Made by a program: the position numbers and the translations under genes | The notes under the pieces: generated by a model | Told to the model about the DNA's origin: nothing | Seen by the model: only the letters and a program-made list of their open reading frames with translations | The model's database searches: none | NCBI RefSeq assembly: GCF_963678865.1 | Contig: NZ_OY787459.1 | Location: forward strand, 2,756,501 to 2,820,500 | DNA length: 64,000 nucleotides | Direction: 5' to 3' | Origin: Maridesulfovibrio sp. | Lineage (GTDB): Bacteria; Desulfobacterota; Desulfovibrionia; Desulfovibrionales; Desulfovibrionaceae | Shown here: in pieces, positions 36,722 to 61,033 of the stretch | How positions within the stretch are numbered: the stretch's first letter is position 1 | Layout: the number at the start of each line of letters is the position of its first letter

Positions 36722-37753
36722 GTGAAAGATATTTCATCCATAGATCCGAAAAAGATTCTAGTATGCCAGTTGCGTCAGATTGGAGATGTAGTGCTCGTTA
36801 CTCCTTCTGTTTCCCTGCTGCATAAAAAATTCCCTGATGCTGAGATTCATGTCCTTACTGAGGAAAAATGCACACAGGTTTTTGATAATAATCCTGCGGT
36901 TAGCCGCGTATGGGCGATAAATAAAAAGGGATTGCGCAATCCGTTCAAGGCCCTGGCTTTTTACTGGAAAATTGGACGGTCCGGGTATGACCTTGTTGTC
37001 GATTTTCAGCAACTGCCACGGTGTCGCTGGGTGGTACTTTTCAGTGATGCTCCGGTTAAGCTTGCGGATAGGCCGCCATGGTATAACCGTTGGCTCTATA
37101 CCAACTGGCCTGAGTATATTCCGGGTGGCTATGCCGCAATGTATAAAGCCGGAGTGCTCAAGCCCCTAGGCATAGATTGGAATCAGGAAAGACCGAAAAT
37201 ATATGTATCCGATCAGGAACGGGCTGAGGCCGAGGCCTGCTTAAAATCATTGGGAGTAGGCGCTGACGAGCCGTTGATTACTATTGATGCTTCACATAGA
37301 AGACACACCCGTAAATGGCCGGAAGAGTATTACGGTAAACTGATTCGTCTTATTTCTGAGAAACGTCCGCAGTATAAATTTTTTCTTCTTTACGGACCCG
37401 GAGAAAAGGATGTTGCCTCTAAGGTAATGAAAGAGTCGGGAGTTGCCGATAAGTGTGTGATGGTTGATCAGCCGGGGTCATTGCGGGTTATGGCTGCATT
37501 GATTGAGCGGGCGGATCTGCATATCGGCAATTGCTCCGCTCCCAGACATTTTGCCGTAGCGGTGGGAACACAGAGTATTGTCATGCCGGGGTCCTCTGGA
37601 GGTTGGGGGTTTCCTTCTCCCGAACACGAGGACGTTGTTGCCGGGATAGATTGTGAGCCTTGCGGCAATGAAAGCTGTGAACGTGGCGATCTGGCATGTC
37701 TGACCAAAGTTATGCCGGAAGATGTGCTTTTAAGGGTTTTAGACAGAGTGTAA
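36722..37753 (+). CDS. Family 9 glycosyltransferase (heptosyltransferase-like)
   Basis: A 343-residue GT-B-fold enzyme of the lipopolysaccharide heptosyltransferase family. Seen are the N-terminal LVCQLRQIGDVVLVTPSV with the catalytic Asp, PDAEIHVLTEE, and the C-terminal nucleotide-binding IGNCSAPRHFAVAVGTQSI segment, where GNCS replaces the more common GxDT(S)G. A Cys-rich stretch near the end (CEPCGNESCERGDLACL) is common in this family. It likely adds a heptose or similar sugar to lipid A core. The start is a GTG with only a weak site; no better ATG fits. It is monocistronic as far as can be seen. Confidence 0.85.
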   Translation: MKDISSIDPKKILVCQLRQIGDVVLVTPSVSLLHKKFPDAEIHVLTEEKCTQVFDNNPAVSRVWAINKKGLRNPFKALAFYWKIGRSGYDLVVDFQQLPRCRWVVLFSDAPVKLADRPPWYNRWLYTNWPEYIPGGYAAMYKAGVLKPLGIDWNQERPKIYVSDQERAEAEACLKSLGVGADEPLITIDASHRRHTRKWPEEYYGKLIRLISEKRPQYKFFLLYGPGEKDVASKVMKESGVADKCVMVDQPGSLRVMAALIERADLHIGNCSAPRHFAVAVGTQSIVMPGSSGGWGFPSPEHEDVVAGIDCEPCGNESCERGDLACLTKVMPEDVLLRVLDRV

Positions 37754-37847: not shown

Positions 37848-38300
37848 ATGGTTTATGATTTTATCGTAAACCGAATCTTGAAAGGGATTTGGTGTCAGTT
37901 CAAATGGGGGGCAATCAGCCTGACTGATCCCATTTTTTATTTGTTTTTTTCTTTCGGTTTTGTCGGGCTTTATGTGCCGGAACCTGACCTTAAGCTTTCG
38001 TTGGGTGTTCTTTTTCTCAAAGCGTTGTTTGAGGAGTTCTTTTTTAGGTTTCTCCTGCAGGAGGGGATTGACCGTCTTTTTAAATACCAGTGGAAATTAG
38101 GGCCACTCAGTCTGGCTAATTTTTTGGCTTCTTTGACATTTGCCTGCGTGCATTTGGTCCATCAGCCAGCCCACTGGGCGTTACTTACTTTCGTCCCTTC
38201 GCTTGCTTTCGGATATATCTGGCAAAGATACCGCAGTCTGGTTTCAGTGACCCTTATCCACTTTGCCTACAACGCATTTTTGTTTTATCAGTTTATGTAA
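37848..38300 (+). CDS. CPBP-family glutamic intramembrane protease (Rce1-like)
   Basis: A 150-residue, strongly hydrophobic protein with about four membrane segments. The three CPBP/Rce1 motifs are complete: EExxxR (Glu62, Glu63, Arg67 in FEEFFFRF), FxxxH (Phe98, His102) and HxxxN (His138, Asn142). Proteases of this class are the predicted processing enzymes for Cys-containing C-terminal sorting signals (MYXO-, JDVT-, Synerg-CTERM; myxosortase work by D. Haft). A protein with such a tail is encoded 6 kb downstream, after gspD, gspE and pglB genes, so this is the candidate sorting protease. The short core-only length suits the JDVT-type enzyme MrtJ, but this subtype is from memory. Confidence 0.85.
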   Translation: MVYDFIVNRILKGIWCQFKWGAISLTDPIFYLFFSFGFVGLYVPEPDLKLSLGVLFLKALFEEFFFRFLLQEGIDRLFKYQWKLGPLSLANFLASLTFACVHLVHQPAHWALLTFVPSLAFGYIWQRYRSLVSVTLIHFAYNAFLFYQFM

Positions 38301-38350
38301 ACAAACCCTGATTGCGGAAAGCTTGACTGGGGTTCACAAGTATAGGATGT

Positions 38351-38409
38351 TTGCAGGGATGCAACTCAATGAGTGTATAATTTAAGATTGTCGACGGGAT
38401 TGTCGACGA
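38351..38409 (+). promoter_or_regulatory. Putative promoter and tandem GTCGAC operator of the gspDE-pglB unit
   Basis: A perfect -10 box TATAAT (38376-38381) has a TTGCAG (38351-38356) 19 bases upstream. Right after the expected start point lie two 12-base direct repeats GATTGTCGACG(G/A) at 38386-38397 and 38398-38409, each with the palindrome GTCGAC. They are well placed for a repressor. The long spacer is a weakness. Confidence 0.45.
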
Positions 38410-38454
38410 CTCCATGCAGATAAAAAAGATTTGCCGGGAATTCCGGTGGAGATT

Positions 38455-40491
38455 ATGGCGCGTAATATGCTTAATAATTTTTGTAGATTGGTTGTAAGTC
38501 TGGTTCTGGTTATGGCCATGACTGTTACTGTGGCCGTGGCTCAGCCAGAAGGCGGGGATGGTGTCCACGCTAATCTTGAGAGTATTCTGCTTTCCGAGTT
38601 TGTGAAATTTGTCGGCCGCTACACCGGACGCAATATTGTCTTCAATAAAGAATCCCTTCCCGGAACATATGTAAGTATTTATGCAGGGCAATCCCTCACT
38701 GAACCGGAACTCATGGCAGTATTTCAACAAGTGCTCAACGGTTCCGGTTTTAATGCTGTAACAAAAGATAATGTTACATATATCCTTCCTATCAGGGAGG
38801 CCCAAACACTTTCTCCGGTAGTCAAGGCTGCCCCGTCGAAAGGGAACGGAGAGGAGATGATTACTTCTGTGTTCCAGCTTGAGGGGAAGATGGATCCTGC
38901 AAAAGTTCAGGCTGTCCTGACCCAGATAAAGTCTCGTATAGGGAAAGTTACTCCTGTTCCTATGGCTGATGCGGTAATGGTCATGGATTTGCAGGACAAC
39001 GTTAATAAAATGAAAACGTTGTTGGGAATCCTCAAGCGGGCAGGCGACAAGCAGGAGTCCACACTTATTGAATTGGAAAAGACGAGTTCCAAAGTTGTCG
39101 CGAATAAACTGACATCATTTTATAAAAAATTATCTTCATCCGGAAAATCAGGAACTCCTCCGGTAATCGAATCCCTTGACTGGGCCAACAGCTTGTTGGT
39201 TTCTGGAAGTGCCGGTCAGATTCAAACGATCAAAAGTCTTATTTCAAAGCTAGACCGTTCCAGTGATTCATATTCCAAAATGAAAATTTACAAATTGCAC
39301 AATATTGAAGCGGTTGTTGCCGGTGATGTATTGAAAAGTCTTGTGACCGGTGGAGGAATACCTTCTTCCAGTAGTTCCGCCGAAGGAGGAAGCGGAACAA
39401 AATCAGGTGCTTCAAGTTCTACTGCATCTTCCAGTGCTGCAAAATCTATTACGTCAGGAACTTCCGGTTCTTCCGATGTCCAGGTTTCAGCTGATGAAAC
39501 TACGAATACTTTGATTGTAATGGCCAGTGCCGATCAGATGCCCCAGATTGACAAGTTTGTGGACCAACTGGATCAGGCTCAGGATCAGGTTTATATCGAA
39601 GCCCTTGTCCTCGAGACCACCCTTACTAATGCCAAGTCTTTTGGTATTGAATGGCAGGGCGGAATTGATATGGGTGGCAGCGTAGCGACTCTGGGCTACA
39701 AGAAAACAACAGGCAGTACGCTTACTTCCTACGCATCAAACCCCGCAACCAATTCTCCAGGAGGTTACTCCATGGGGGTGCTAGGGGACACTATTTCTTA
39801 CGCAGGTAAGTCTTTCCCGACAATCGGGGCATTAGTGGATTTTACCAAATCAGCCACTGATTTTAACCTGATTTCCGCTCCTCAGATCATGACCCTTGAC
39901 AATGCTGAAGCGGAAATATTTGTGGGTGAGAACAGACCCTACAAAACAGGTGAAAGCTCAACCTCCGGCGATTCTGTTGTTTCTACCTATTCTTACAAGG
40001 ATGTCGGTATCAAACTGAAGATCACCCCACGCATCAACCGTGAAGACGGCTTGATCAAGCTTAATGTTTACCAGACTTATAATACAATTTCTTCTTCCAG
40101 CACTGTTACGGAACTGCCCATCACCAATGACCGTGTGACAGATACAACTGTTCTGCTCGCTGATGGTTCCACCATGGTTATCGGCGGTTTGATAAAATCG
40201 GACCAGACCCGGACCGATTCCGGCGTGCCGTATCTTTCCGATTTGCCGTTATTGGGTTGGCTCTTCAAGACTACCGGAAACAGTGGGAATAAGCAGACCC
40301 TGATGGTTTTTCTTTCTGCCCGCATAATCAGGACAACTGAACAGCTTGAGGCTATCAGCAAGGCTAAAATGGATAAGTACCGCAAGCAGCGTAAACGGTT
40401 TGAGACTTTTATTGATAAAGAATTCAATACATATAAAAACGATTCAGACCAATCAGATATAGACAATGTCAGCAAATCTTCTGATGGTTAG
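38455..40491 (+). CDS. gspD: Type II secretion system secretin GspD
   Basis: A 678-residue outer-membrane channel protein. A signal peptide (about 1-28, ending VAVAQP) is followed by the N0 domain (FVKFVGRYTGRNIVFNKES), N1-N3 ring domains (about 120-360, with a Ser/Gly-rich loop of about 35 residues in the last one), and the secretin barrel domain (about 375-640) with the family text VYIEALVLETTL, LISAPQIMTLDN and PLLGWLFKTTG. It forms the exit gate for folded proteins. N0 plus three N domains indicates T2SS rather than PilQ. The ATG at 38455 has GGTGGAG. It is followed directly by gspE and pglB. Confidence 0.93.
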   Translation: MARNMLNNFCRLVVSLVLVMAMTVTVAVAQPEGGDGVHANLESILLSEFVKFVGRYTGRNIVFNKESLPGTYVSIYAGQSLTEPELMAVFQQVLNGSGFNAVTKDNVTYILPIREAQTLSPVVKAAPSKGNGEEMITSVFQLEGKMDPAKVQAVLTQIKSRIGKVTPVPMADAVMVMDLQDNVNKMKTLLGILKRAGDKQESTLIELEKTSSKVVANKLTSFYKKLSSSGKSGTPPVIESLDWANSLLVSGSAGQIQTIKSLISKLDRSSDSYSKMKIYKLHNIEAVVAGDVLKSLVTGGGIPSSSSSAEGGSGTKSGASSSTASSSAAKSITSGTSGSSDVQVSADETTNTLIVMASADQMPQIDKFVDQLDQAQDQVYIEALVLETTLTNAKSFGIEWQGGIDMGGSVATLGYKKTTGSTLTSYASNPATNSPGGYSMGVLGDTISYAGKSFPTIGALVDFTKSATDFNLISAPQIMTLDNAEAEIFVGENRPYKTGESSTSGDSVVSTYSYKDVGIKLKITPRINREDGLIKLNVYQTYNTISSSSTVTELPITNDRVTDTTVLLADGSTMVIGGLIKSDQTRTDSGVPYLSDLPLLGWLFKTTGNSGNKQTLMVFLSARIIRTTEQLEAISKAKMDKYRKQRKRFETFIDKEFNTYKNDSDQSDIDNVSKSSDG

Positions 40492-40503
40492 CAGGGCTGT
40501 AAA

Positions 40504-41985
40504 TTGAGTACTTCTTATGATTTGAATATGGTCCCGCGTGAGATTGTAGACCTGTTTCTGACCTTTCCACAGCGGAATGAATTTATTCCTGTTGAGGTGC
40601 GGGATAAGGAGATTAAGTTTCTTTTGCAAAATGAATCTTCTTTACCTATGGCGGATTTTTTGGCTTGGAAAATGGGTAAAAATGTTGTTTCTGAAATTGT
40701 TGCAGAAGAAGAGTTCTTTCCTTTGCTTGAGCAGGCACTTACCATTTGGGAAGAAGAAAGTGCCATTGAATCTGATTCTGGTGACGGAGAAGGAGAAGAT
40801 GGTCAGGATCTGCTGGGCTGGTCGCATGATGATGCCCCCATTGTCCGGCTCGTCAATAAAACTTTGCATCAGGCTATTTCCACCGGAGCCAGTGATATTC
40901 ACTTCGAAGGTCAAGGTAACGGTTTTGTGGTTCGTTACCGACAGGATGGGGTGCTGAAAGCGGTCAAGCGTCTGGACAAAGGACTCCAGTCTACAGTTAT
41001 TGCCCGTATTAAAGTTATGGGTGAAATGGACGTTGCCGAGAGCCGTAAGCCGCAGGATGGTCGAATTTTCCTTAAACTAGGGCAAAAAGAAGTTGATGTC
41101 CGTGTTTCCACTATTCCCACCATGAGCGGCGAGAAAGCAGTTCTGCGTGTTCTGGACCGCTCCAAGAATATTCTTAATCTTGAAGATCTGGGCCTGAAAG
41201 GTCCGGACCTTGAACTCTTCAGGAAGGTCCTTGCACAGCCCCACGGTATCGTGCTTGTCACCGGCCCGACAGGATCCGGTAAGACCACCAGTCTTTATGC
41301 CGGTCTGAGCGAACTTCCCCGCGACGATAAAAATATCGTTACCGTTGAAGATCCGGTGGAATACCAGTTATCCGGGATAAACCAGGTGCAGGTCAACAAG
41401 GCTGCGGGGATGACTTTTGCCACTACCATTCGTTCATTTCTCAGGCAGGACCCGGATATTATCCTTGTCGGTGAGATTCGAGATCAGGAAACAGCCAGTA
41501 CCGCTGTTCAGGCTTCGCTTACCGGTCACCTTGTTCTATCCACTTTGCATACCAATGATGCCGCTACCGCAGTGACTAGAATGCTTGATATGGGCATTGA
41601 ACCGTTTTTGCTGGCCTCATCACTTTCTTTAGTGCTCGGCCAACGGCTGGTGCGCGTTAACTGTAAGCACTGCTCCAGAACTGTGGATGTGTCAGAGAAT
41701 ACTCACAAACTCTTTGAAGAAACAGCAGGTCTGCCTGCAACTCAGATTGCCGGAGCCGGTTGCGAGCATTGCAACTTCACCGGATTCAGCGGACGTAGGG
41801 GTGTTTATGAGCTTATTCCGGTCACCGAAGATATGCGTGGCCTGATTATGGAAATGGCTTCTTCTGACCAGATTAAGTCTTACGCAAAAAAAATGGGCCG
41901 TGAAACAATGATTGATCACGGTGTGCGGCTGGTCAAAGAAGGGGTTACCACCCTTGAAGAAGTTGTCCGCGTTACCAAACTTTAG
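40504..41985 (+). CDS. gspE: Type II secretion ATPase GspE
   Basis: A 493-residue secretion ATPase. The N-terminal domain (about 1-100) is divergent and acidic. The core has Walker A GPTGSGKTTSLYAGL near residue 255, the Asp box, Walker B (DPDIILVGEIRD) and His box (HLVLSTLHTNDA). The C-terminal zinc domain has four cysteines in CKHC...CEHC near 385-420, as in GspE. It drives pseudopilus assembly for export through GspD. It begins at a TTG (40504) 12 bases after gspD; an ATG at 40528 is a possible alternative. No gspF or pseudopilin gene follows; instead the oligosaccharyltransferase gene is next. Confidence 0.93.
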   Translation: MSTSYDLNMVPREIVDLFLTFPQRNEFIPVEVRDKEIKFLLQNESSLPMADFLAWKMGKNVVSEIVAEEEFFPLLEQALTIWEEESAIESDSGDGEGEDGQDLLGWSHDDAPIVRLVNKTLHQAISTGASDIHFEGQGNGFVVRYRQDGVLKAVKRLDKGLQSTVIARIKVMGEMDVAESRKPQDGRIFLKLGQKEVDVRVSTIPTMSGEKAVLRVLDRSKNILNLEDLGLKGPDLELFRKVLAQPHGIVLVTGPTGSGKTTSLYAGLSELPRDDKNIVTVEDPVEYQLSGINQVQVNKAAGMTFATTIRSFLRQDPDIILVGEIRDQETASTAVQASLTGHLVLSTLHTNDAATAVTRMLDMGIEPFLLASSLSLVLGQRLVRVNCKHCSRTVDVSENTHKLFEETAGLPATQIAGAGCEHCNFTGFSGRRGVYELIPVTEDMRGLIMEMASSDQIKSYAKKMGRETMIDHGVRLVKEGVTTLEEVVRVTKL

Positions 41986-42025
41986 CTTCTGCAATTCCTC
42001 AATAAATACTCATAGGTGTATCGAT

Positions 42026-44143
42026 ATGAATACTCGTGATGAATCCCATAATTCCAAATGGTTTTCCGACTGGAAGATTTTAGTTTTATTTGCGCTTCTT
42101 TGCTTCGCGTTTGCATTTGGATTGCGGGCGATGGAGTTACCGAAATGGGATAATCCGGCATTTATGGTTGACGGTGAGTATATTTTGGGAACTCATGATG
42201 CATACGCATGGTTGGCTGGAGCTAAAGGTGTAGGGCGTGCGGTAGATAATCCCATGGCCGGATTGGTCAGGGTTCTGGGAAGTGTCACCGGGGCACCTTA
42301 CGGTAATATCGCTTTTTGGTTGCCTGTTGTTTTTGCTGGATTTACCGCTGTTGCCGCATTTGCATGGGGGATGCTTCTTGGTGGCCCCTGGCTTGGATTT
42401 TGTGCCGGAGTATTTGCCACCTCTATCCCAATGTTTTATTACAGGACTAGATTAAGCTATTACGATACTGATGTTGTTACCCTTCTTTTCCCTCTGATCA
42501 TTTCTTTCTTAATGATTTTCTGGCTGAATCGGGGGATCAGAAATAGATGGCTACCTGATGATGTAAAGATTCAATCCTTTCAACCCACGATGTTCGAATA
42601 TTTTCTCCCTGTTATAGGTGGTTTTTTTGTCAGCTTTGGAAAGTTGTGGCACACAGATGTTTTTTCATTCGGCTTATATACTATTTTTGCTGCTACATTC
42701 CTTGTTTTTATTTGTGGTAGCAAAGAGAATCGTCCTATTTTATTGCGAGGAATCACTTTATTTGTCCTGCCCGCTTTGTTCGGTTGGATTGGCGGGGCCC
42801 TTTCAATTCTGTTTATTGCCGCACTGATCAAAATTGATATTCAAAAATATCACGTTTTTAAGAATGTGTATTTTTATCTCTTTATTGTTTTGGTTGCGTT
42901 GGTTTTGAGCGATGCAGGGGTATTGCTGATTAATTTATTTTCTAAAATGCAGTCATACTTGAAGCCTATTTCAGATGCTGCACAGGAAAGTGTGGCCCAG
43001 CTTCATTATCCCAGTATCGGACAGAGTGTTATCGAAGCTCAGAATATTCAATTTGCTGCTTTATTGAATGACCTGACCGGCAATATGTATCTCTCCTGTT
43101 TCGGGTTGTTCGGCTTTCTGTTCTTGTTGGCTCGCCGTCCTCAAGTCCTGCTTTTATTGCCTTTTGCGGTTATGACTATTGCAGCGGTCAAGCTTGGCGG
43201 CAGATTTGCCATGTTCGGCGGTATAGCTGTCGGTCTTGGAGGTTGTTACTTTTTGTACTGGCTGATTTTTAAATTTGTCACGCTTGGTAAGCAGAAAGTT
43301 TTTTGTTCAGCAGGTGCATCAGCTGTTTTGATTATTTATTTGATGGTCAGCATTCTCCCTGGATATAGTCAGGCAATGCCTACTCCAATAATTTACCAGG
43401 AACATGCTAAGGCTTTGAAGGCAATGTCCGGTATTACACCTCAAAACAGTACCTTCTGGACATGGTGGGACTGGGGTTATGCAACCATGTATTTTACTGG
43501 TCAAAATTCTTTTGCTGACGGCAGCAACCATGGCGGTACGACCCTTTTTCCTCTTGCTTTTGCTTATACGACTCCTTCTTTTATGCAGGCTAATCAGTTT
43601 ATTAAGTATGCGGCTTCAAAAAAAGGTGGGCCATCAACTACATGGAGCAAAATGCCAGCTGAGGACGTTGTCGGACTAGTCCGCAGTTTTGGTTTTAAGG
43701 ATTACGGATTCAAGGATACTCCCAAGCAATACATAGTCACCACTTGGTCGGATGTGCGTCTCGCATATTGGATATTGTATTACGGGTCCTGCGATTTGCT
43801 GACCGGACAGGGGGTTCATCCGAATATTAGTACTGTCAACACAGCATTCAGCCTTGATAAAGATGCAGGACGTCTTGTCTTTGGTGACGGTGCGTCTCTC
43901 CCGATTTCTGGGTTCGATGTAGCATATTTGGGAATGGGCGAAAGTAGAGTTTATCCTGAATCTGAAGCTCCATTTTTGGTCTATAATAAATATGTCGGGC
44001 AAGGCTATTTAGTTAATGATATGGCTAGGAACAGTCTTCTGTTCAGGCTGTTGCTGATGAACCCGTCCAGTCCTGAAATTAAAGGGAAGTTCAAGTTGGT
44101 TTATGAAGGTTTTCCCTTGGTCAGGATTTATGAAGTAATTTAA
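42026..44143 (+). CDS. pglB: STT3/PglB-type N-oligosaccharyltransferase
   Basis: A 705-residue GT-C membrane enzyme that moves a lipid-linked oligosaccharide onto Asn of N-X-S/T in exported proteins. About 13 membrane segments fill residues 17-455, and a periplasmic domain fills the rest. Catalytic features match PglB/STT3: Asp58 in GTHDAYAW on the first external loop, YYDTD at 145-149, and the sequon-binding WWDWG at 480-484. Known Desulfovibrio PglB enzymes are active and accept sequons without the acidic -2 residue. ATG 42026 has an AGGTG site; longer frames overlap gspE and are not used. It stands between the secretion ATPase and a protein with 24 sequons, its likely acceptor. Confidence 0.93.
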   Translation: MNTRDESHNSKWFSDWKILVLFALLCFAFAFGLRAMELPKWDNPAFMVDGEYILGTHDAYAWLAGAKGVGRAVDNPMAGLVRVLGSVTGAPYGNIAFWLPVVFAGFTAVAAFAWGMLLGGPWLGFCAGVFATSIPMFYYRTRLSYYDTDVVTLLFPLIISFLMIFWLNRGIRNRWLPDDVKIQSFQPTMFEYFLPVIGGFFVSFGKLWHTDVFSFGLYTIFAATFLVFICGSKENRPILLRGITLFVLPALFGWIGGALSILFIAALIKIDIQKYHVFKNVYFYLFIVLVALVLSDAGVLLINLFSKMQSYLKPISDAAQESVAQLHYPSIGQSVIEAQNIQFAALLNDLTGNMYLSCFGLFGFLFLLARRPQVLLLLPFAVMTIAAVKLGGRFAMFGGIAVGLGGCYFLYWLIFKFVTLGKQKVFCSAGASAVLIIYLMVSILPGYSQAMPTPIIYQEHAKALKAMSGITPQNSTFWTWWDWGYATMYFTGQNSFADGSNHGGTTLFPLAFAYTTPSFMQANQFIKYAASKKGGPSTTWSKMPAEDVVGLVRSFGFKDYGFKDTPKQYIVTTWSDVRLAYWILYYGSCDLLTGQGVHPNISTVNTAFSLDKDAGRLVFGDGASLPISGFDVAYLGMGESRVYPESEAPFLVYNKYVGQGYLVNDMARNSLLFRLLLMNPSSPEIKGKFKLVYEGFPLVRIYEVI

Positions 44144-44266
44144 TGAAAGATTTTGGCTTGTTTTTCTTGATAATATCTTGTATTGAGGATTCATAAAGTT
44201 GTGCTGCGTACCGTAGGCATGGGGTTTTCGGTGTGCTCACAAGCAAAACATGGAGATTTTTTCACT

Positions 44267-46444
44267 ATGAAAAAACTTATCGGTATTTTTACAGTACTGC
44301 TCGTACTCTGCGCTTCCAGTGCTTTCGCGCTGACCGCTGAGTTCCCTGCGTACTACAACGGTTCCATGGGCAATGCTGTCTATGGTAACAACTTCAATGG
44401 TACCCAGATGTTCTATACGGGTTTCGGCGTTAACGCTACAGGCCTGCGTACAGCCGCTTCTGCTAAATCTTGGGGCAGAATGGTTATGTTCAAATCTGAA
44501 ACCAGCCCTACCTACTACAAAAAAGACCTCTTTCATGTTAACGCATCCTGGGATGTTCCTAGCAGAAAGGCTTTTTTTAACGGTACAGTAGTTTTCGCCA
44601 ACGGTTCCACGACTTTTACAGGCTCCCTCGGTAACGCTACCATTGCTACCAACGCTAAAGGACCTTTCCTGACTTTTGATGTTACCGCTGGTGCTACAGC
44701 AGGTCAGAAGATTGGCGGCCTTGCCACCCTCGCTCCTGTTAACTCCACCTTGAACGCAACCACATACTTTGTGCCTGTGTCCGGTTACCAGATGATGGTT
44801 GGTATCACTAACGCAACCAACAACATGACCGCGCATAGTGCTACTGCCCTCCAGAACGCATCTACCACTGGTTCCGGTCTCTCCATGAGCATGGTTTACC
44901 AGAACGGTACTTTCCTGAATACTTCCGGTGACCTCGCTATCGCTGATGGTGCTACCTGGGATTACTATGCATATGGTGTTGCTCAGAACGATCCTGTAGT
45001 TATCTTTGGTCAGGTTAAGATCAACTCCGACTACAGCACCACTTCTACTACCGGTAACGCTCAGGCTAGATACTACATCCTGAACTCCACTGATAATGTT
45101 GATGAGTCCACTTGGGCATACTTCAACGCTACTACTTATAAAAATGCTGCTGGCGGTAACCTCCAGATAGCAAGAAAAGCTGGTAAAACCGCTGCATCCA
45201 AGACTGCTAGCACTTTCTACCTCTTCCAGAACGCTACCATCAACGCAGACCAGAACATGGTTTCCGGTTTTGTTACTGCTGCCAACCAGAAGTGCTTCGC
45301 TGTCATGATCAAGAGCGGAAGCAACCTTTCCAATGACTACCTCAGGAACAAAGGTTTCACCACTGTGTTCACCGGTTCCGGTAAAGCTAATCAGGAAGCT
45401 GGTAACGCTACTGCTGGTCTGATGCAGTTCAGAGTTGATAATAACATGGAACTCACCGGTGCTTCTCATAACTGGTTTGTTAAAGCTCCTGCAGCTGCCG
45501 GTGCAAACTTCCAGAACATTGATAGTTGTAAAGCAAACATTGACGGTTACACCATCAATGTAGCTTCTACTTCTCAGTTTAAAATCGCTCAGACCAACGC
45601 TACCTTCTATGACACCGCTGGTGATAAAGTTGGTTACTTCTACGGTAAAAGATCTGCTGATGATACCTTTGCTGTAGGTATCTTCGAAAGCCACATGACC
45701 GGTACTACCGTTGCTAATGCTCAGACTCGTCAGAGCACTGTTGCTTACCGCACTCTTGCTTTCCTGATCCCCACTTCCGCTACTACCTCTGTAATCACCA
45801 ATGCTGGTTCCGCTTACCAGATCAACGCATCCCTGGCTGACTTCACTGGCGCTGTAGGTACTCTCCGCACCAACTCCACCGGTTACACCAAGGCTGCTCT
45901 TCGTGCTGAATGGACCGGTATTCCTTCTGACTTCGTACCTTTGACTGACGTTAAAGGTTACCAGCTTACCTCTCAGGGTAAGATGGGTCCCGGTCAGGAA
46001 TTCTACTACACTGCTTCTTTCCAGATGACTGGTGTTGCTGGTAGAGTTTCCGGACTTAATCTTTACAAGCTCATGACTGATGGTGCTACTTCTCACCGTC
46101 TTGCCTACTCTGAAACTCCTTCAACTACCACTGATGGTATCTGGTGGATTTCCTCTGCTGACGGTAACACCAACTTGGGTTCTAATTCCGAACTCTCTGC
46201 AGATCAGACCTACTATGTAAACTGGGTTGTAAAGAACAACGGTTCTTACGACACCAACAATACTGAAAACAAGGGTAGCACTGTTCCGGTTCAGATTTCT
46301 GACCCGGTTATCCTCGGACTTGGCGGCACATCCAGCTCCAGCTCCTCCGGTTGTGTATTCAACCCCGCAGCTGGCTTCGGTCTGGAATGGCTGCTCCTGA
46401 TGCTTGCTCCCATGGTTGCTATCGTACGTAGCCGCTTCAAGTAA
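44267..46444 (+). CDS. Sequon-rich secreted surface protein with Cys C-terminal sorting signal
   Basis: A 725-residue exported protein with no named family. A signal peptide (cut expected after AFA, residue 21) precedes about 660 residues rich in Asn, Thr, Ser, Ala, Gly and aromatic strands, probably a beta-rich surface or fibre domain. I count 24 N-X-S/T sequons (first at residue 32), mostly NAT, NGS, NGT, NAS or NST; only one has an acidic -2 residue. The end is a tripartite sorting signal: Gly/Ser linker, Cys696 in SGCVFNP, hydrophobic helix 706-720, basic tail RSRFK. Codon use is strongly biased (GGT, AAC, GCT, TCC), suggesting high expression. ATG 44267 has GGAGA. Its likely partners are the upstream PglB, GspDE and CPBP protease. 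Confidence 0.88.
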   Translation: MKKLIGIFTVLLVLCASSAFALTAEFPAYYNGSMGNAVYGNNFNGTQMFYTGFGVNATGLRTAASAKSWGRMVMFKSETSPTYYKKDLFHVNASWDVPSRKAFFNGTVVFANGSTTFTGSLGNATIATNAKGPFLTFDVTAGATAGQKIGGLATLAPVNSTLNATTYFVPVSGYQMMVGITNATNNMTAHSATALQNASTTGSGLSMSMVYQNGTFLNTSGDLAIADGATWDYYAYGVAQNDPVVIFGQVKINSDYSTTSTTGNAQARYYILNSTDNVDESTWAYFNATTYKNAAGGNLQIARKAGKTAASKTASTFYLFQNATINADQNMVSGFVTAANQKCFAVMIKSGSNLSNDYLRNKGFTTVFTGSGKANQEAGNATAGLMQFRVDNNMELTGASHNWFVKAPAAAGANFQNIDSCKANIDGYTINVASTSQFKIAQTNATFYDTAGDKVGYFYGKRSADDTFAVGIFESHMTGTTVANAQTRQSTVAYRTLAFLIPTSATTSVITNAGSAYQINASLADFTGAVGTLRTNSTGYTKAALRAEWTGIPSDFVPLTDVKGYQLTSQGKMGPGQEFYYTASFQMTGVAGRVSGLNLYKLMTDGATSHRLAYSETPSTTTDGIWWISSADGNTNLGSNSELSADQTYYVNWVVKNNGSYDTNNTENKGSTVPVQISDPVILGLGGTSSSSSSGCVFNPAAGFGLEWLLLMLAPMVAIVRSRFK

Positions 46445-46482: not shown

Positions 46483-46516
46483 AGAGGGCCGGCCTTAGGG
46501 TCGGCTCTCTTTTTTA
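46483..46516 (+). terminator. Rho-independent terminator after the surface protein gene
   Basis: Twelve-pair stem AGAGGGCCGGCC/GGTCGGCTCTCT (two G-T pairs) with a TTAG loop, followed by a T run. It separates the secretion/glycosylation unit from the glycan cluster. Confidence 0.9.
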
Positions 46517-52658: not shown

Positions 52659-53816
52659 ATGAATATTCCTTTTATTGACTTAAAAAAACAGTTTTCCCGC
52701 GTTGAAAAGCAAATTCGTGACAACATGGATACCGTTCTGGATCATGGTGCTTACATCATGGGCCCGGAAATTCCGGCCATTGAAGAAAAATTGGCTGAAT
52801 ATTGCGGAACCAAACATGCCCTCGGCTGTGCTTCCGGTACTGATGCCCTGACTCTGGCGCTCATGTCCCTGGATGTAAAACCCGGTGATGCTGTTTTTAC
52901 CACCCCGTTTACCTTCTTTGCCACAGCAGAAACAATCGCCCTTACCGGGGCAACCCCTGTCTTCGTGGATATTGACCCGGTGACCTTCAACATTGATCCG
53001 GAAAAACTAGACAAAACCATTGAAGCACTCAAAGGCTCTGATAACGGCTGTCCTCTGCCTAAAGTTGACGGGTTGACCCCTCGAGGCATCATCTCCGTTG
53101 ATCTTTTCGGACAGCCTGCTGACTATGAATCGATCAAGGCTGTGGCAGATAAGCATGACCTGTTTCTTATCGAAGATGCAGCCCAGAGTTTCGGCGGCGA
53201 ATACAAAGGTAAACGTGCATGTTCACTTGGTGACATCACCTGCACCTCATTTTTTCCGGCAAAACCCCTTGGCTGTTACGGTGACGGCGGCATGTGCTTT
53301 ACTGACGATGATAATCTGATTGAACGCTTGCGCTCCCACCGTATCCACGGCATGGGACCGGACAGATATGACAATGTTCGTCTTGGCATAACCGGACGTA
53401 TGGATTCCCTGCAGGCCGCAATTCTGCTGGCAAAATTCGAAATCTTCCCTGAAGAAGTTGACCTACGCGACAAAGTTGCAGCCACCTATGCCGAACTTCT
53501 TGCTGACGTTGAAGGGCTTACTGCCCCCTTTGTTCCCGAAGGATACCGCTCCGTATGGGCTCAGTACTGCCCACTGGCAAAAGACGGCGACCACAGAGCT
53601 CGTATTCAGGCCGCGCTTCAGGAAAAGGGCATACCTTCACCCATATATTACCCCATTCCCCTGCATCTGCAGACTGCCTTCAAGGATCTCGGATACAAAA
53701 TGGGAGATTGTCCGGTAAGTGAAGATGCTGCCAGCCGTATTTTTGCCATCCCCATGCATCCCTATCTTGAAAAAGAACAGCAGGAATTCATAGCTGACAT
53801 CATTAGGAATGCATAG
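52659..53816 (+). CDS. DegT/DnrJ aminotransferase, WbpE-like
   Basis: A 385-residue pyridoxal-phosphate enzyme. The N-terminal FIDLKKQ, GTDALTLAL, IEDAAQSFGG and the PLP-lysine region SFFPAKPLGCYGDGG match the WbpE-type UDP-3-keto sugar aminotransferases closely, including the late YPIPLHLQ segment. It should make a 3-amino-3-deoxy sugar nucleotide in the cytosol, with the Gfo/Idh/MocA enzyme at 48769 supplying the 3-keto substrate. GGAG precedes the ATG. From here to 63.7 kb the genes overlap or nearly touch, so this is the likely start of one long transcript. Confidence 0.9.
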   Translation: MNIPFIDLKKQFSRVEKQIRDNMDTVLDHGAYIMGPEIPAIEEKLAEYCGTKHALGCASGTDALTLALMSLDVKPGDAVFTTPFTFFATAETIALTGATPVFVDIDPVTFNIDPEKLDKTIEALKGSDNGCPLPKVDGLTPRGIISVDLFGQPADYESIKAVADKHDLFLIEDAAQSFGGEYKGKRACSLGDITCTSFFPAKPLGCYGDGGMCFTDDDNLIERLRSHRIHGMGPDRYDNVRLGITGRMDSLQAAILLAKFEIFPEEVDLRDKVAATYAELLADVEGLTAPFVPEGYRSVWAQYCPLAKDGDHRARIQAALQEKGIPSPIYYPIPLHLQTAFKDLGYKMGDCPVSEDAASRIFAIPMHPYLEKEQQEFIADIIRNA

Positions 53817-53820
53817 CTAA

Positions 53821-54966
53821 ATGGGAAAAACTCTCCTTGTCATCATAACAGACCGCCTTTCCCATATTATTGGGAAAGGCGAGCTGATTGACCGCTATTA
53901 TAATCCCGGCGGGGTCTTCAGTGACGTCCATATCCTGATGACCAATGATGACAGCCCGGATCATCAGTTTTTGCAACGAACCGTGGGTGACGCGAAATTG
54001 ACCCTGCATAACCTGCCCTCCGGCATGGGGCTGCTGGCCAAAACACTCTGGCGTCCGTTTCTCCTGCGGAGCTGGGCAAATCAGGCAATTGCTCTGGCCG
54101 AAGAGATCAAGCCCGAGATGGTCCGCTGTTACGGCAATTTTATTAACGGCTATGTAGGAGCAAGAATTAAAGAAGAGCTGGGAATACCGCTTTTTGTGTC
54201 CCTGCACACTCAGCCCGATCAGACCCGTGCTACTCCGGAAGTGGATTTCAAAACAAAGATTTTTTACGCCTTTTCCAAGAGTATTGAAAAATACACCTTG
54301 AAAAGAGCGGACAAAGTGAGCTGTGTATATGGTTCTATTCTGGATTATGCGCAACGCAACGGGGCAAGTGAACCTTTTGTTGCCTACAACGTGATTAATC
54401 CGGGCAATCTTGTGCGAAAAGAAGAGTATTGTTCTTCCGGTCCACTGAAAATTCTCTACGTTGGACGGGTCATACCGGCCAAAAACCCTGAGAACATTAT
54501 TCGTGCCCTGCAGGATTTAGATGCGGAGTTAACAGTGGTCGGAAGCGGCTCCAAGGAACAGGAGCTTGCAGAACTTGCAAGCGAGCTTAAAGTTGCCGGG
54601 CAGGTTCACTTTATTCCGGCCATGCCTAACGATGAACTCTGCCGGACCATGCATGAATATGACATGTTTGCCGGGCATTCCCAGTATAGCGAAATACCGA
54701 AGACCGTACTGGAGGCTTCTTTGTGCGGTTTGCCCATTCTTTTCAATTCACGTACGGGGAGTCCTGTCCCTGAATTTGAAAATAACATTGCCAAGATGGT
54801 GGAGGATTCCCCGGCAGGGTACCGTTCAGGGATTGAGTTTTTTATGGACTTGGAAAATCGGGCTGAGTACGGCACAAGGGCATTTAAATATGCTCAGAAA
54901 CATTGGGAACCGTCTTACGCAGAACAGGTTTACGCTGATATTCACAAGGAGCTGACGGGAATATGA
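53821..54966 (+). CDS. Family 4 glycosyltransferase
   Basis: A 381-residue GT-B retaining glycosyltransferase. The C-terminal half carries the family core: LKILYVGRVIPAKNPENIIRAL, the LTVVGSGSKEQEL strand, and the EX7E region around YSEIPKTVLEASLCGLPILF near residue 300. The N-terminal acceptor domain is divergent. It adds a sugar to the growing glycan, probably on a lipid carrier at the cytosolic membrane face; donor unknown. It starts 4 bases after the aminotransferase and overlaps the next glycosyltransferase by 4 bases. Confidence 0.9.
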   Translation: MGKTLLVIITDRLSHIIGKGELIDRYYNPGGVFSDVHILMTNDDSPDHQFLQRTVGDAKLTLHNLPSGMGLLAKTLWRPFLLRSWANQAIALAEEIKPEMVRCYGNFINGYVGARIKEELGIPLFVSLHTQPDQTRATPEVDFKTKIFYAFSKSIEKYTLKRADKVSCVYGSILDYAQRNGASEPFVAYNVINPGNLVRKEEYCSSGPLKILYVGRVIPAKNPENIIRALQDLDAELTVVGSGSKEQELAELASELKVAGQVHFIPAMPNDELCRTMHEYDMFAGHSQYSEIPKTVLEASLCGLPILFNSRTGSPVPEFENNIAKMVEDSPAGYRSGIEFFMDLENRAEYGTRAFKYAQKHWEPSYAEQVYADIHKELTGI

Positions 54967-56141
54967 AAAAATCGATCCTCTTCATAACATACGATTTCCC
55001 GCCGATCCTTTCACCTGAATCAATTCAGGTGCAACGCCGTGCGCTTACTTTGGCCCGTAACGGACACCGGGTCCATGTTTTGACCTGTTGTGAGAATCCT
55101 GATTTTGAATTTCTGGACCGGCAGCTTAGCCGTGATCATGAGAATCTGACTATTCACCGCGTAAACAGGCTACCCGGTGAAAAATGGCTGCATTATCTTT
55201 GTGGCGGACTGGAAATTACCGACCGCAAATTCTGGTGGAAATTCCCGGCAGCTGATGCGGCAGTTAAATTGATTAAGGAATTCCAGATTGATGCCCTTTA
55301 CAGTCATTCCACCCCGCTGGTGAACCATCTTGCAGGATTGGCCGTAAAGGAAACTGACCGTAATCTGCATTGGACAGCGCATTTTTCCGATCCCTGGACT
55401 CTGAACCCGTACCTTTCGTACCGTACAGGTTTTCAACGCAAGATCAACAAGTTATATGAAAAAGCTGTAATTTCAAGGGCAGATACCATCACAGTGACCT
55501 CGGAAAAAACCAAGGACCTGTTTGTGAAAGGACTTGCAGCTGACAGCGCTAAAATAAAAGTCCTGCCACATGTCTTTGATCCTGACCTATACACCCGCAG
55601 GAAAAACGAACCGCAGAAAAAAATTATTGCCCACACTGGCAACATATACGGTCTGCGTTCGGCTGCACCGCTCATTGAAGCGGTTCACAAAGTACAGCCG
55701 CAAAATCTTGAATTTCATTTTTACGGACGCATGAAAGAGGAAGAAAGGCAGCTTGCTGAATCCAAATGCCCTGAGCTGATCAGGTTTTTTGACCCGGTTC
55801 CTTATCTGGATTCAATCAAAGTTCTTTCTGATGCAGATATTCTGCTGGTCATAGACGCTCCGTTGAAAGATTCACCATTTTTTCCTTCCAAGCTCGCCGA
55901 CTACATCGGGGCGGGCAAGCCTGTGGTGGCTCTTAGCCCGTTGTCTTCCACGACCACCCAGATTGTGCGTGATATCCAGAAAGAATTGCTGATTGCCGAC
56001 AGTGCTGATGTTCCATCCATTGCCGCCCTTGTTCGCAGACTGGATTCAACTAATCCCGCCGAACTGCGTGAAGAAGGTAAAGACTTTTACAATATGAATA
56101 ACAGCTACGAAAATATACGTGAGGCCCTTTTTGATGAATAA
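54963..56141 (+). CDS. Family 4-like glycosyltransferase
   Basis: A 392-residue GT-B enzyme. The N-terminus has the FITYDFPPILSPESIQVQRR motif of WbuB/GT4-like transferases, with a glycine-poor loop and HWTAHFSDPW mid-protein; the C-terminal part has IIAHTGNIYGLRSA and PFFPSKLADYIGAGKPVVAL, the nucleotide-sugar site. It should add a second sugar to the same glycan. It overlaps the previous gene by 4 bases and the epimerase gene by 8 bases. Donor and linkage cannot be read from sequence. Confidence 0.88.
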   Translation: MKKSILFITYDFPPILSPESIQVQRRALTLARNGHRVHVLTCCENPDFEFLDRQLSRDHENLTIHRVNRLPGEKWLHYLCGGLEITDRKFWWKFPAADAAVKLIKEFQIDALYSHSTPLVNHLAGLAVKETDRNLHWTAHFSDPWTLNPYLSYRTGFQRKINKLYEKAVISRADTITVTSEKTKDLFVKGLAADSAKIKVLPHVFDPDLYTRRKNEPQKKIIAHTGNIYGLRSAAPLIEAVHKVQPQNLEFHFYGRMKEEERQLAESKCPELIRFFDPVPYLDSIKVLSDADILLVIDAPLKDSPFFPSKLADYIGAGKPVVALSPLSSTTTQIVRDIQKELLIADSADVPSIAALVRRLDSTNPAELREEGKDFYNMNNSYENIREALFDE

Positions 56142-57093
56142 TGCCAAAGTGCTTGTTACCGGCGGCGCAGGAGCCATCGGACTGAACTTGATTGAAAGAA
56201 TGCTTGCGGCCGGAGTCGGCGCGGTGATGGTGCTTGATGACCTTTCTTCCGGGTATAAAAATTACCTGCCGGAGGACGGGCGGGTTTCATTTGTAAAGGC
56301 TGACATCGGACAGATTGAGACCTATCGCGAGAAAATGGAAGCATTTAAGCCTGATTATGTTTTCCATCTGGCGGCCCATTTCGCCAATCAGAACTCAGTG
56401 GACCATCCCTTTAAGGATGTGCAGGCCAATATCATAGGCACCATGAACCTGCTGGAGATCTGCAAGGAAAACAAGCGACTGAAGAAATTTGTCTACACCT
56501 CATCTTCATGTGTCTACGGCAATGCCGCTATCATGAATGAGGCAGACTATATCTATCCACATGAAACCCCTTATGCCATCAACAAGTACACAGCTGAGTT
56601 GTACGTAAAATACTATGCCTCCATGTTTCAGATTCCGGCTGTATCCATCAGGGTTTTCAACACCTACGGACCATATGAGCCGCATGGGGCATACCGTAAC
56701 GTTATCCCCAATTTCATTGTCCGGGCCATCAAGGGCGAACCCCTCTTCATTACCGGGGACGGCACTGAAACCCGTGATTTCACTTTCGTAGGCAACACCG
56801 CCCAACTGCTGACCCTTGCCGCTCTTTCCGATGTTACGGATGGTGATATTTTCAACGGCGGCACAGGAAAGCCGACCCAGATCATCGATCTTGCCAAAAT
56901 GATTATCGAATACACCGGATCTTCATCCGAAATAGTCTTCAAGGAAAGACGCAATTGGGATGCGGTAAAAGACCGCCTTTCCGACATTTCCAAATCATGG
57001 AAAGTGCTGGGCTATGAGCCTGAGGTGCCGCTTGAAGAAGGTCTGAAAAAGACCGTGGATTGGTATATGAATGACTACGAGATCGAGGATTAA
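56134..57093 (+). CDS. NAD-dependent sugar epimerase (GalE/WbpP-like)
   Basis: A 319-residue extended short-chain dehydrogenase. The Rossmann motif TGGAGAIG is at the N-terminus, the Ser of the triad is in YTSSSCVYG, and the YxxxK pair is in PYAINKYTAEL near residue 152. RVFNTYGPYE and the late RDFTFVGN are typical of UDP-hexose 4-epimerases. It likely interconverts a UDP-GlcNAc/GalNAc-type donor. The ATG at 56134 lies inside the preceding gene (8-base overlap); the frame up to 56119 is not needed. The ABC transporter gene follows 9 bases later. Confidence 0.88.
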   Translation: MNNAKVLVTGGAGAIGLNLIERMLAAGVGAVMVLDDLSSGYKNYLPEDGRVSFVKADIGQIETYREKMEAFKPDYVFHLAAHFANQNSVDHPFKDVQANIIGTMNLLEICKENKRLKKFVYTSSSCVYGNAAIMNEADYIYPHETPYAINKYTAELYVKYYASMFQIPAVSIRVFNTYGPYEPHGAYRNVIPNFIVRAIKGEPLFITGDGTETRDFTFVGNTAQLLTLAALSDVTDGDIFNGGTGKPTQIIDLAKMIIEYTGSSSEIVFKERRNWDAVKDRLSDISKSWKVLGYEPEVPLEEGLKKTVDWYMNDYEIED

Positions 57094-57102
57094 GAGGACG
57101 AC

Positions 57103-58824
57103 GTGGTTATTATGATCAAAAAGATCAAAGGGCTGCTGAACCCGGTCCAGAAAAAAAGTATGATCGCGTTGGTCGTTTTGTCCATCGTTATTTCAGGAAT
57201 TGAGACAGTGGGCATTTCGGCCATACTGCCGTTTATTTCTGTCGCCAGTGATTTTTCGCTTGCAACAGACAATAAGTATTATCATTTTGTATACACCCTT
57301 TTGGGTTTTACTGACACGCAGTCTTTTGTCATTACCTTCGGTTTTGTGCTGGTCGGGTTTTATATTTCCAGAGGTTTTATAAATCTTTGTTACATGTATT
57401 TTATCCAGAGGTATTCACAAGGGATATTCCTTTCGTTAGCTATTAAAATATTTTCCAATTATGTTCATATCAAGTATCAGGATATGACTACTAGGAATAG
57501 CTCTGACCTTGCAAAAAAGCTGATTACTGAAACAGATAATGCGGCTCTTTTCTTTTATTCCCTATTGCTGTTGATTTCTGAACTGTTTGTCTCATCTTTT
57601 ATTTATGCCGCACTGCTGGTTGTTAACTGGAAGGTTACATTGGCGCTTACCGGTTTTCTTGGCTCTATGGTTTTTCTGTTAGTTAAGGTTGTTTCCGGGT
57701 TGATCAGGAAGGAAGGGCCCAAGCGCAATCATTTTCAGGAAATCTATTACCGGACAATTAATGAAACTTTGAGCAACCTGAAATTTATCAAACTGCTTGC
57801 CGGGGAAGAAACCGCCATCAAAGCATTGAATAAATCCGGTCAGGGCTATGTTAATGCCATGGTGATGAACAAAACTTACAATACTATTCCCCGCTTATCG
57901 CTTGAAAGCATCGGATTTTCATTGCTTATATCAGCTTTGATCTTCGCATTAATGCATGGGGAAAGTATTGCCAGCATTATTCCTGTTGTTTCGCTGTTCG
58001 CCTTAGCCATGTATCGTTTGCTGCCGTCTGTAAACCGTATTTTGAGCAGCTACAATAACATGCTCTACTACACCAAGAGTATTGAGTTACTCCATGAAGA
58101 TCTGAATATTGCAACTCATAATCTGGGTAATGAGCCTCTTGAATTTACAAGGCAGATCAATATTGAAAAAATGAGTTTTGGCTATACTGAAGATCCCGTA
58201 CTTGAGAATATTTCGTTGAATATCAAAAAAGGCGAAAAGATAGCGCTGATAGGAGAAAGCGGAGCAGGCAAGAGTACGCTTGCGGACATAATAATCGGGA
58301 TGTACACTTCTTTTTCCGGGCATATTCATGTGGATGATGAGCTTTTGAGCGAAAAAAATATGCTCTCATGGCGGGAAAAAATAGGATACATTCCGCAGTC
58401 CATCTATCTTTTTGATTCAACTGTTGCAGAAAATGTTGTCTTCGGACGACAATATAATGAGCAACAGGTGAAGGAAGCGCTTCATAAAGCTGAATTGACA
58501 TCTTTTCTGGAACAGAATGAAGGAATTCATACTCTGGTAGGTGAAGACGGTTCCCAGCTCTCCGGAGGGCAGAAACAGCGAATAGCTATTGCGAGAGCAA
58601 TATATGGTGACCCTGACCTGTTAGTTCTGGATGAGGCTACATCAGCTCTCGACAGCCGTACAGAGCAGAAGATCATGGATAATATTTTTAAGGTAAGTGA
58701 AGGCAAAACACTTATTATTATCGCACACCGCCTATCAACCATTGAGCAGTGTGACAAAGTTTATAAAATTGAAGATAGAGGCATCTGCCTTGTTGAAGAT
58801 AAAACCGTTCAATCTGATTGTTAG
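57103..58824 (+). CDS. ABC-type lipid-linked oligosaccharide flippase, PglK/MsbA-like
   Basis: A 573-residue fused exporter: six membrane helices in residues 1-310 and an ATPase domain after about 345, with Walker A GESGAGKST, Q-loop IPQSIYLFD, signature LSGGQKQR, Walker B LLVLDEATSALD and switch His in IIAHRLS. The length and arrangement equal Campylobacter PglK (about 564), which flips the undecaprenyl-linked glycan for PglB. A GTG start at 57103 with AGAGGAC is used; ATG 57112 is less well placed. Located amid glycosyltransferase and nonulosonate genes, and with a pglB gene 13 kb away, a flippase role is strongly suggested but not proven; a lipid exporter is the alternative. Confidence 0.88.
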   Translation: MVIMIKKIKGLLNPVQKKSMIALVVLSIVISGIETVGISAILPFISVASDFSLATDNKYYHFVYTLLGFTDTQSFVITFGFVLVGFYISRGFINLCYMYFIQRYSQGIFLSLAIKIFSNYVHIKYQDMTTRNSSDLAKKLITETDNAALFFYSLLLLISELFVSSFIYAALLVVNWKVTLALTGFLGSMVFLLVKVVSGLIRKEGPKRNHFQEIYYRTINETLSNLKFIKLLAGEETAIKALNKSGQGYVNAMVMNKTYNTIPRLSLESIGFSLLISALIFALMHGESIASIIPVVSLFALAMYRLLPSVNRILSSYNNMLYYTKSIELLHEDLNIATHNLGNEPLEFTRQINIEKMSFGYTEDPVLENISLNIKKGEKIALIGESGAGKSTLADIIIGMYTSFSGHIHVDDELLSEKNMLSWREKIGYIPQSIYLFDSTVAENVVFGRQYNEQQVKEALHKAELTSFLEQNEGIHTLVGEDGSQLSGGQKQRIAIARAIYGDPDLLVLDEATSALDSRTEQKIMDNIFKVSEGKTLIIIAHRLSTIEQCDKVYKIEDRGICLVEDKTVQSDC

Positions 58825-58864
58825 GTCAATCAAATAAACAAAAAAGATACAAGGGGAATCAATA

Positions 58865-61030: not shown

Positions 61031-61033
61031 TTG

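Follow-up and report, generated by a model that had tools for sequence, protein, structure and literature searches.

A putative surface-glycoprotein pathway in Maridesulfovibrio combining type II secretion genes, a PglB-type oligosaccharyltransferase, a MrtJ sorting protease and one sequon-rich protein

The stretch of DNA analysed here, called the window, comprises 64,000 nucleotides of Maridesulfovibrio sp. (assembly GCF_963678865.1, contig NZ_OY787459.1, positions 2,756,501 to 2,820,500), and this work concerns five genes in its second half which encode a predicted sorting protease, two components of a type II secretion system (T2SS), an oligosaccharyltransferase (OST) and a secreted protein rich in N-X-S/T sequons, the target. 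A sequence-only reading of the same DNA had described them as a closed unit that appears to glycosylate, secrete and anchor one surface protein. The genes and the features that belong to them are as follows, in window coordinates.

37848..38300, + strand: MrtJ, a CPBP/Rce1-type glutamic intramembrane protease of the myxosortase family (NF033192), predicted sorting protease
38455..40491 (the listed open reading frame opens at 38431), + strand: GspD, outer-membrane secretin of the T2SS; it has a signal peptide, N0, Secretin_N repeats and a secretin domain
40504..41985, + strand: GspE, T2SS assembly ATPase (TIGR02533)
42026..44143, + strand: STT3/PglB-type N-oligosaccharyltransferase, full-length profile match to Campylobacter lari PglB 5ogl
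44267..46444, + strand: sequon-rich secreted target, with signal peptide, body of about 650 residues, C-terminal beta domain, Ser linker, GC-VFNPAA signature, transmembrane (TM) helix and basic end
46331..46441, + strand: C-terminal sorting signal of the target, tripartite and of the Cys type (Ser linker, GCVFNPAAGFGLEW, TM, RSRFK)
46483..46510, + strand: intrinsic terminator-like hairpin closing the unit (12 pairs, 8 GC, T-run)

All five open reading frames (ORFs) were found where that reading had placed them, consecutive and on the + strand, and the gaps between them measure 154, 12, 40 and 123 bp, so that co-transcription as one predicted unit is plausible. The hairpin at 46483, previously called a strong terminator, is indeed the best of the scanned region, and the total of terminator-like hairpins in that region was not above that of shuffled sequences. 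Profile matches agreed with the gene identities proposed earlier. The CPBP protein scored 81.5 bits against a cut-off of 75 for the NCBIfam equivalog NF033192 ('JDVT-CTERM system glutamic-type intramembrane protease MrtJ'), and its catalytic motifs EExxxR (E62, E63, R67), H102, and H138 with N142 (HxxxN) were invariant across nine MrtJ homologues; it is therefore named MrtJ here, a predicted protease for Cys-type sorting tails that by homology would cleave them. GspD passed its equivalog cut-off (TIGR02517, 438 bits vs 351) and matched Pfam PF21305, PF03958 and PF00263, and GspE matched TIGR02533 at 3e-169 with 564 bits, under the curated cut-off of 630. STT3 matched C. lari PglB 5ogl with E 2.4e-47 over profile positions 16-686. 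It keeps D58, D147/D149, E337, R393 and WWDWG at 480-484, all conserved among its homologues, as equivalents of D56, D154, E319, R375 and WWD of C. lari PglB, which we take to be the catalytic positions of that enzyme. STT3 is thus a predicted PglB-type OST with catalytic residues retained, which would transfer glycan to N-X-S/T, and it is not the Campylobacter-type equivalog NF050801 (69.8 against a cut-off of 1300). In the alignments the equivalent of C. lari PglB R331 is lost, Asp349 standing in its place.

The count of exactly 24 N-X-S/T sequons (X not Pro) in the target body and the tail alignment confirmed what had been reported for the last protein, including its signal peptide and Cys tail; the number of sequons is about twice the expectation from composition (z = 4.1). 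The protein ends in ...SSSSSSGCVFNPAAGFGLEWLLLMLAPMVAIVRSRFK, and the residues G-C-V and N-P-x-A of this tail were invariant in nine homologues from five genera. The tail fits the general Cys-type tripartite signal, with an invariant Cys, a TM helix, a basic end and a conserved signature. Membership of the JDVT-CTERM family was rejected: NF033191 gave no match to the target tail and scored the positive control L171 at 28.4 against a cut-off of 27. The best tail model was Synerg-CTERM, at 8.9 bits and under its cut-off of 22.5. Because neither model recognises it at cut-off, the tail is an unmodelled variant of the Cys-type sorting signal. In some related tail proteins a 'choice-of-anchor U' domain precedes the tail. 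The target found no relative among PDB sequences and no useful match in Pfam. An AlphaFold model of the whole target from three sequences was discarded (mean pLDDT 38), and the C-terminal domain modelled alone (pLDDT 71) gave no Foldseek match with E<0.001; a likeness of this domain to archaellum FlaF/FlaG-like beta sandwiches in VIA-align was set aside, its Z of 6.8 being ordinary for common arrangements. In one relative (G093, L033 9756-11863) the target ORF lies in two frames of 91 and 574 aa, by frameshift, assembly error or phase variation.

For the sequon statistics, Cys-tail proteins encoded elsewhere, mostly in the same genomes, served as the control, as they bear the same sorting tag and presumably take the same export route but have another neighbourhood. 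The nine targets physically linked to the locus contain 206 sequons where composition predicts 98 and the reversed motif occurs 83 times; 28 other Cys-tail proteins contain 236, against 212 expected and 190 reversed (Mann-Whitney, p 3e-5). Paired within genomes, the linked protein exceeded the others in 8 of 8 (p 0.004). A wider split that adds the orthologues of G024 and G027 gave 248 observed, 119 expected and 98 reversed, vs 194, 192 and 175 for the others, but these two were classed as linked by homology after their sequons had been seen and the stricter nine-target split is safer. Among the targets N-X-T outnumbers N-X-S by 186 to 62 (3:1), compared with a T:S content of 804:614; sequon positions are retained within 4 columns in 68% of cases vs 25% under the null, and Asn is conserved at 62% within sequons vs 38% elsewhere. 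Sequon enrichment is specific to the OST-linked target, and selection on sequons is visible in the sequence. No acidic preference at position -2 was seen in the targets (5.6% D/E), which fits the loss of the R331 equivalent in STT3 and the relaxed PglBs of Desulfovibrio (PMC4894442). The OST appears, from these comparisons, specialised for this one client. Several tandem Cys-tail proteins occur in G016 (L137), none of them sequon-enriched, and the only STT3 homologue there is a distant one (27%).

The genus sample consisted of seven genomes of the whole-genome collection, the window's own included, and the UBA2564 metagenome-assembled genome (L158). The sequence-only reading had named a lack of conserved linkage in related genomes as refuting it, a check that it passes: the order MrtJ-GspD-GspE-STT3-target was found in seven of these eight genomes (G000, G117, G093, G048, G007, G074 and UBA2564), with the association of OST and T2SS genes recurring in four more MrtJ-bearing genera. 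Across the genus the tail of the target is nearly invariant and its body is 39-61% identical to the window's; STT3 diverges almost as fast (47-68% identity), and GspE is 85-95% identical where the locus is complete. The eighth genome, G105, has a MrtJ-STT3 pair at L032 12421-15158, and its one Cys-tail protein (L128 1342-4332, 996 aa) shows a mild sequon excess, 16 vs 11.

In each of those four genera a T2SS operon either contains the OST or borders it, and MrtJ is near T2SS genes in 4/4 of them and near the OST in 3/4. The OST follows gspF immediately in G023 and G024, giving the operon gspC-D-E-F-STT3; in G023 a transposase-like ORF separates gspC from a target with 28 sequons, encoded about 1.5 kb upstream, and in G024 MrtJ is 6 kb from the OST. 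G065 carries MrtJ-gspC-gspD-gspE-(gspF)-STT3-...-target, the last with 20 sequons, within about 21 kb, and in G027 the OST is next to gspF. These findings ruled out the idea that OST and T2SS genes come together only in this genus. Scored by hand as an OST within about 10 kb of gspD, gspE or gspF, the linkage was present in 10 of 15 MrtJ genomes vs at least 6 of 104 others (p 1.7e-7), and by genus in 5 of 8 MrtJ-bearing vs at least 2 of 36 others (p 9e-4), the figures for genomes without MrtJ being taken from the matches listed and possibly low. Phylum-wide, no OST was found near gspD outside the host family among the GspD matches listed. Further arrangements were seen beside these. The T2SS-linked OST of G065 is followed directly downstream by two more STT3-like proteins, 23-25% identical, and by a glycosyltransferase-like gene (L142 8966-13020). 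Genus g9 (L185, L186) shares the window's order gspD-gspE-STT3; its STT3 is highly diverged (25-27%), and no MrtJ was found in its genomes. In genus g29 (L187-L190), also without MrtJ, the OST lies beside gspC- and gspL-like genes, between the gspC and a GspD-like protein that is short and degenerate (22-23% identity), an arrangement resembling a T2SS remnant that has retained its OST.

MrtJ was found near T2SS genes in G065, G027, G024, G191 and G367, and outside the host family the MrtJ homologues examined are found near a Cys-tail protein, or next to T2SS genes without an OST (L171-L173). The window's genome encodes one clear and one weak Cys-tail protein besides the target, and its relatives have up to nine tail matches, so MrtJ likely has further clients. 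The earlier notion of one surface protein may consequently hold for the OST and does not hold for the sorting protease, which would also serve the genome's other Cys-tail proteins, these not being sequon-enriched. In G065 a 1097-aa subtilisin-like Cys-tail protein lies directly downstream of a second MrtJ (L039 10271-13564), a classic two-gene pair that coexists with the T2SS/OST locus in the same genome.

Two parts of the earlier description had to be revised. The five genes do not form a closed unit, belonging instead to a split T2SS locus and a glycan locus, and GspD and GspE are not a stand-alone secretin/ATPase pair. The chromosome carries gspC, gspF, a response regulator, a histidine kinase and gspG-N at 2.8457-2.857 Mb, about 25-37 kb after the last base of the window, and together with the gspD and gspE of the window they give the genome a complete gspC-M set. 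Among these distal genes gspC, F, G, K and L were called by hidden Markov model (HMM), several under curated cut-offs, H/I/J are adjacent pilin-like ORFs, gspM is a weak HMM match and gspN was assigned by position only. Our reading is that the window carries a rearranged part of a T2SS operon whose remaining gsp genes lie farther along the chromosome. Between the two T2SS halves sits a glycan island, and the region from about 2.794 to 2.862 Mb as a whole is rich in glycan genes. The following genes of the island lie in the window.

57103..58824, + strand: PglK-like ABC flippase for lipid-linked oligosaccharide (best match NF050066 PglK)
52659..63674, + strand: glycan-precursor genes, comprising DegT/LegC aminotransferases, epimerases, glycosyltransferases, and PseF-like and NeuB-like nonulosonate genes

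The PglK-like protein scored 583.9 bits over positions 1-556 of 558 of NF050066 (cut-off 1000; next family 280), and it is likely the supplier side of the N-glycosylation pathway of STT3. A PglK homologue was present in 7/7 genus genomes searched and absent at E<=1e-90 from 12 tested genomes of other genera, and therefore the glycan pathway may differ between genera. Past the window, about 30 kb from the OST, are bacillosamine-type PglF-, PglE/LegC-, PglD- and PglC-like genes, the PglD-family acetyltransferase above its cut-off and the PglF/E/C-like genes under theirs. The LegC-, PseF- and NeuB-like genes at 58865-63674 of the window make up a probable nonulosonic-acid pathway, possibly contributing a component of the glycan.

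On balance we favour the view that the locus encodes a dedicated surface-glycoprotein pathway, in which a T2SS would work with its own PglB-type OST, with MrtJ and with one sequon-packed client. The DNA itself shows which genes are present, that their linkage is conserved, that catalytic residues are retained and that sequons are under selection; the steps themselves we infer. Sec would export the target, and the Cys tail would hold it in the inner membrane. STT3 would then take a glycan from its undecaprenol carrier, once the PglK-like transporter had flipped it, and attach it to the approximately 24 sequons of the target in the periplasm. The target Cys would be lipidated and MrtJ, by homology, would remove the TM segment, as MrtX does for MYXO-CTERM proteins, and the folded, glycosylated and lipid-anchored target would finally cross the outer membrane through GspD and reach its outer face, by analogy with TraA. 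These last two steps borrow from the MrtX/MYXO-CTERM/T2SS precedent (PMC11980579).

Several points weigh against the dedicated pathway. G105 retains adjacent MrtJ and STT3 but has neither this gspDE nor a dedicated target. The MrtJ of G023 is on another contig than the gsp-linked OST and target, adjoining a second OST and near gspG/K/L-type genes, and the targets of G024 and G027 are on contigs other than that of the OST. A single origin of the T2SS-linked OSTs was unsupported, as they are not monophyletic. The window's genome has a second T2SS-like locus (G000 C1:2184351-2196050, L152) with GspD, GspF and GspG homologues, so the T2SS of the locus is a candidate exporter of the target. The pairing of MrtJ with the target is suggested by adjacency and co-conservation, the JDVT-CTERM model missing the target tail. 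Orthologues are not independent samples and the sequon p-values are optimistic, and linkage in genomes without MrtJ may be undercounted. We also know of no direct precedent for a T2SS exporting a folded protein with heavy N-glycosylation.

Among the alternatives, a serious though doubtful one is that the genes are neighbours merely through the large envelope/polysaccharide island, STT3 being a general OST for many periplasmic proteins and the T2SS and MrtJ handling unrelated cargo. The wealth of glycan genes from about 2.794 to 2.862 Mb agrees with this, as do the MrtJ-STT3 pair of G105 without this T2SS and the many host-family members that have STT3 without a gsp gene nearby (among the matches listed), but the linkage recurs in several genera with differing gene orders, the order is kept in seven of eight genus genomes, and only the linked target is enriched in sequons, the sister Cys-tail proteins being near expectation. 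We regard it as unlikely that the target, as a glycosylated adhesin or S-layer-like protein, remains anchored in the inner membrane or the periplasm, with the T2SS genes linked for regulation only; a MrtJ and Cys-tail set without gsp genes or OST within about 10 kb does exist in other families (L171, L172; PMC11980579), but MrtJ lies close to T2SS genes in the five genomes named above and TraA, a MYXO-CTERM protein, is T2SS-dependent (PMC11980579). It is highly improbable that the N-X-S/T richness is a by-product of composition in a Ser/Thr/Asn-rich beta protein that is not glycosylated, for although N, S and T abound in the target body and N-G and N-A turns are frequent in beta proteins, reversed-motif and shuffle controls do not reproduce the excess, it is missing from other Ser/Thr-rich Cys-tail proteins, N-X-T is favoured over N-X-S and the sites are positionally conserved.

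Each part of the proposed dedicated pathway belongs to a known family, and the combination is what would be new: a T2SS operon that includes an N-OST and is joined by a dedicated acceptor and a myxosortase was, as had been supposed from the sequence alone, not described in the literature searched, which did not cover the original JDVT-CTERM description. The MrtX/MYXO-CTERM/T2SS system of Myxococcus xanthus, in which surface display of TraA is T2SS-dependent, shares a myxosortase-family CPBP protease, a Cys-bearing tripartite tail and a T2SS with our locus (PMC11980579), but no OST is described there, the clients number dozens and the tail signature is another. The MrtJ/JDVT-CTERM system of Haft and colleagues, described as a two-gene neighbourhood in beta/gamma-proteobacteria (PMC11980579), has the same protease equivalog by HMM score, near one Cys-tail protein, whereas here gspD, gspE and the OST intervene, the tail fails the JDVT-CTERM model and there are several tail proteins per genome. 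The Campylobacter pgl locus likewise has a PglB-type single-subunit OST, a PglK-like flippase and PglF/E/D/C-like genes, and relaxed N-X-T use has been shown for PglB of D. gigas, D. vulgaris and D. desulfuricans (PMC4894442), but for neither Campylobacter pgl nor Desulfovibrio PglB has a place in a T2SS operon, or the company of a dedicated acceptor and a sorting protease, been described. PglL of Vibrio cholerae ties protein glycosylation to T2SS output and glycosylates periplasmic chaperones such as DegP (PMC6901666); unlike STT3 it is O-linked and broad-spectrum, and no operon with a dedicated client is described. The S-layer glycoprotein of Haloferax is N-glycosylated by AglB, processed at its C-terminal membrane segment by archaeosortase A and lipid-anchored (PMC4245038), much as we propose for the target, but with a non-homologous protease, no outer membrane and no T2SS. 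The archaeal AglB/ArtA system is the closest functional parallel, not a homologous one. Tentatively, and with less assurance than the pathway itself, bacteria may have an integrated route for exporting N-glycoproteins in which the OST is a T2SS accessory: glycosylation would come before the processing by MrtJ and the T2SS export of a dedicated, heavily N-glycosylated and lipid-anchored surface-coat protein, and might even license them, in a bacterial equivalent of the archaeal S-layer pathway of AglB and archaeosortase.

The setting is that of sulfate-reducing bacteria related to Desulfovibrio, and the locus suggests a dedicated route in them to a sugar-coated surface protein. The only natural acceptor of Desulfovibrio PglB in the literature searched is the HmcA cytochrome of D. 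gigas, and the locus supplies a candidate main acceptor, with its OST placed among T2SS genes. MrtJ is tied to T2SS genes outside Myxococcota, and a testable question is posed, namely whether a heavily N-glycosylated protein is exported by type II secretion and left on the surface. One further gene of the window stands next to the unit.

36722..37753, + strand: GT9 heptosyltransferase-like gene (Pfam PF01075, 1.5e-14), immediately upstream of mrtJ

Its belonging to the unit is uncertain; it usually adjoins mrtJ in the genus, lying directly upstream in four relatives and in L158, with one gene intervening in L035.

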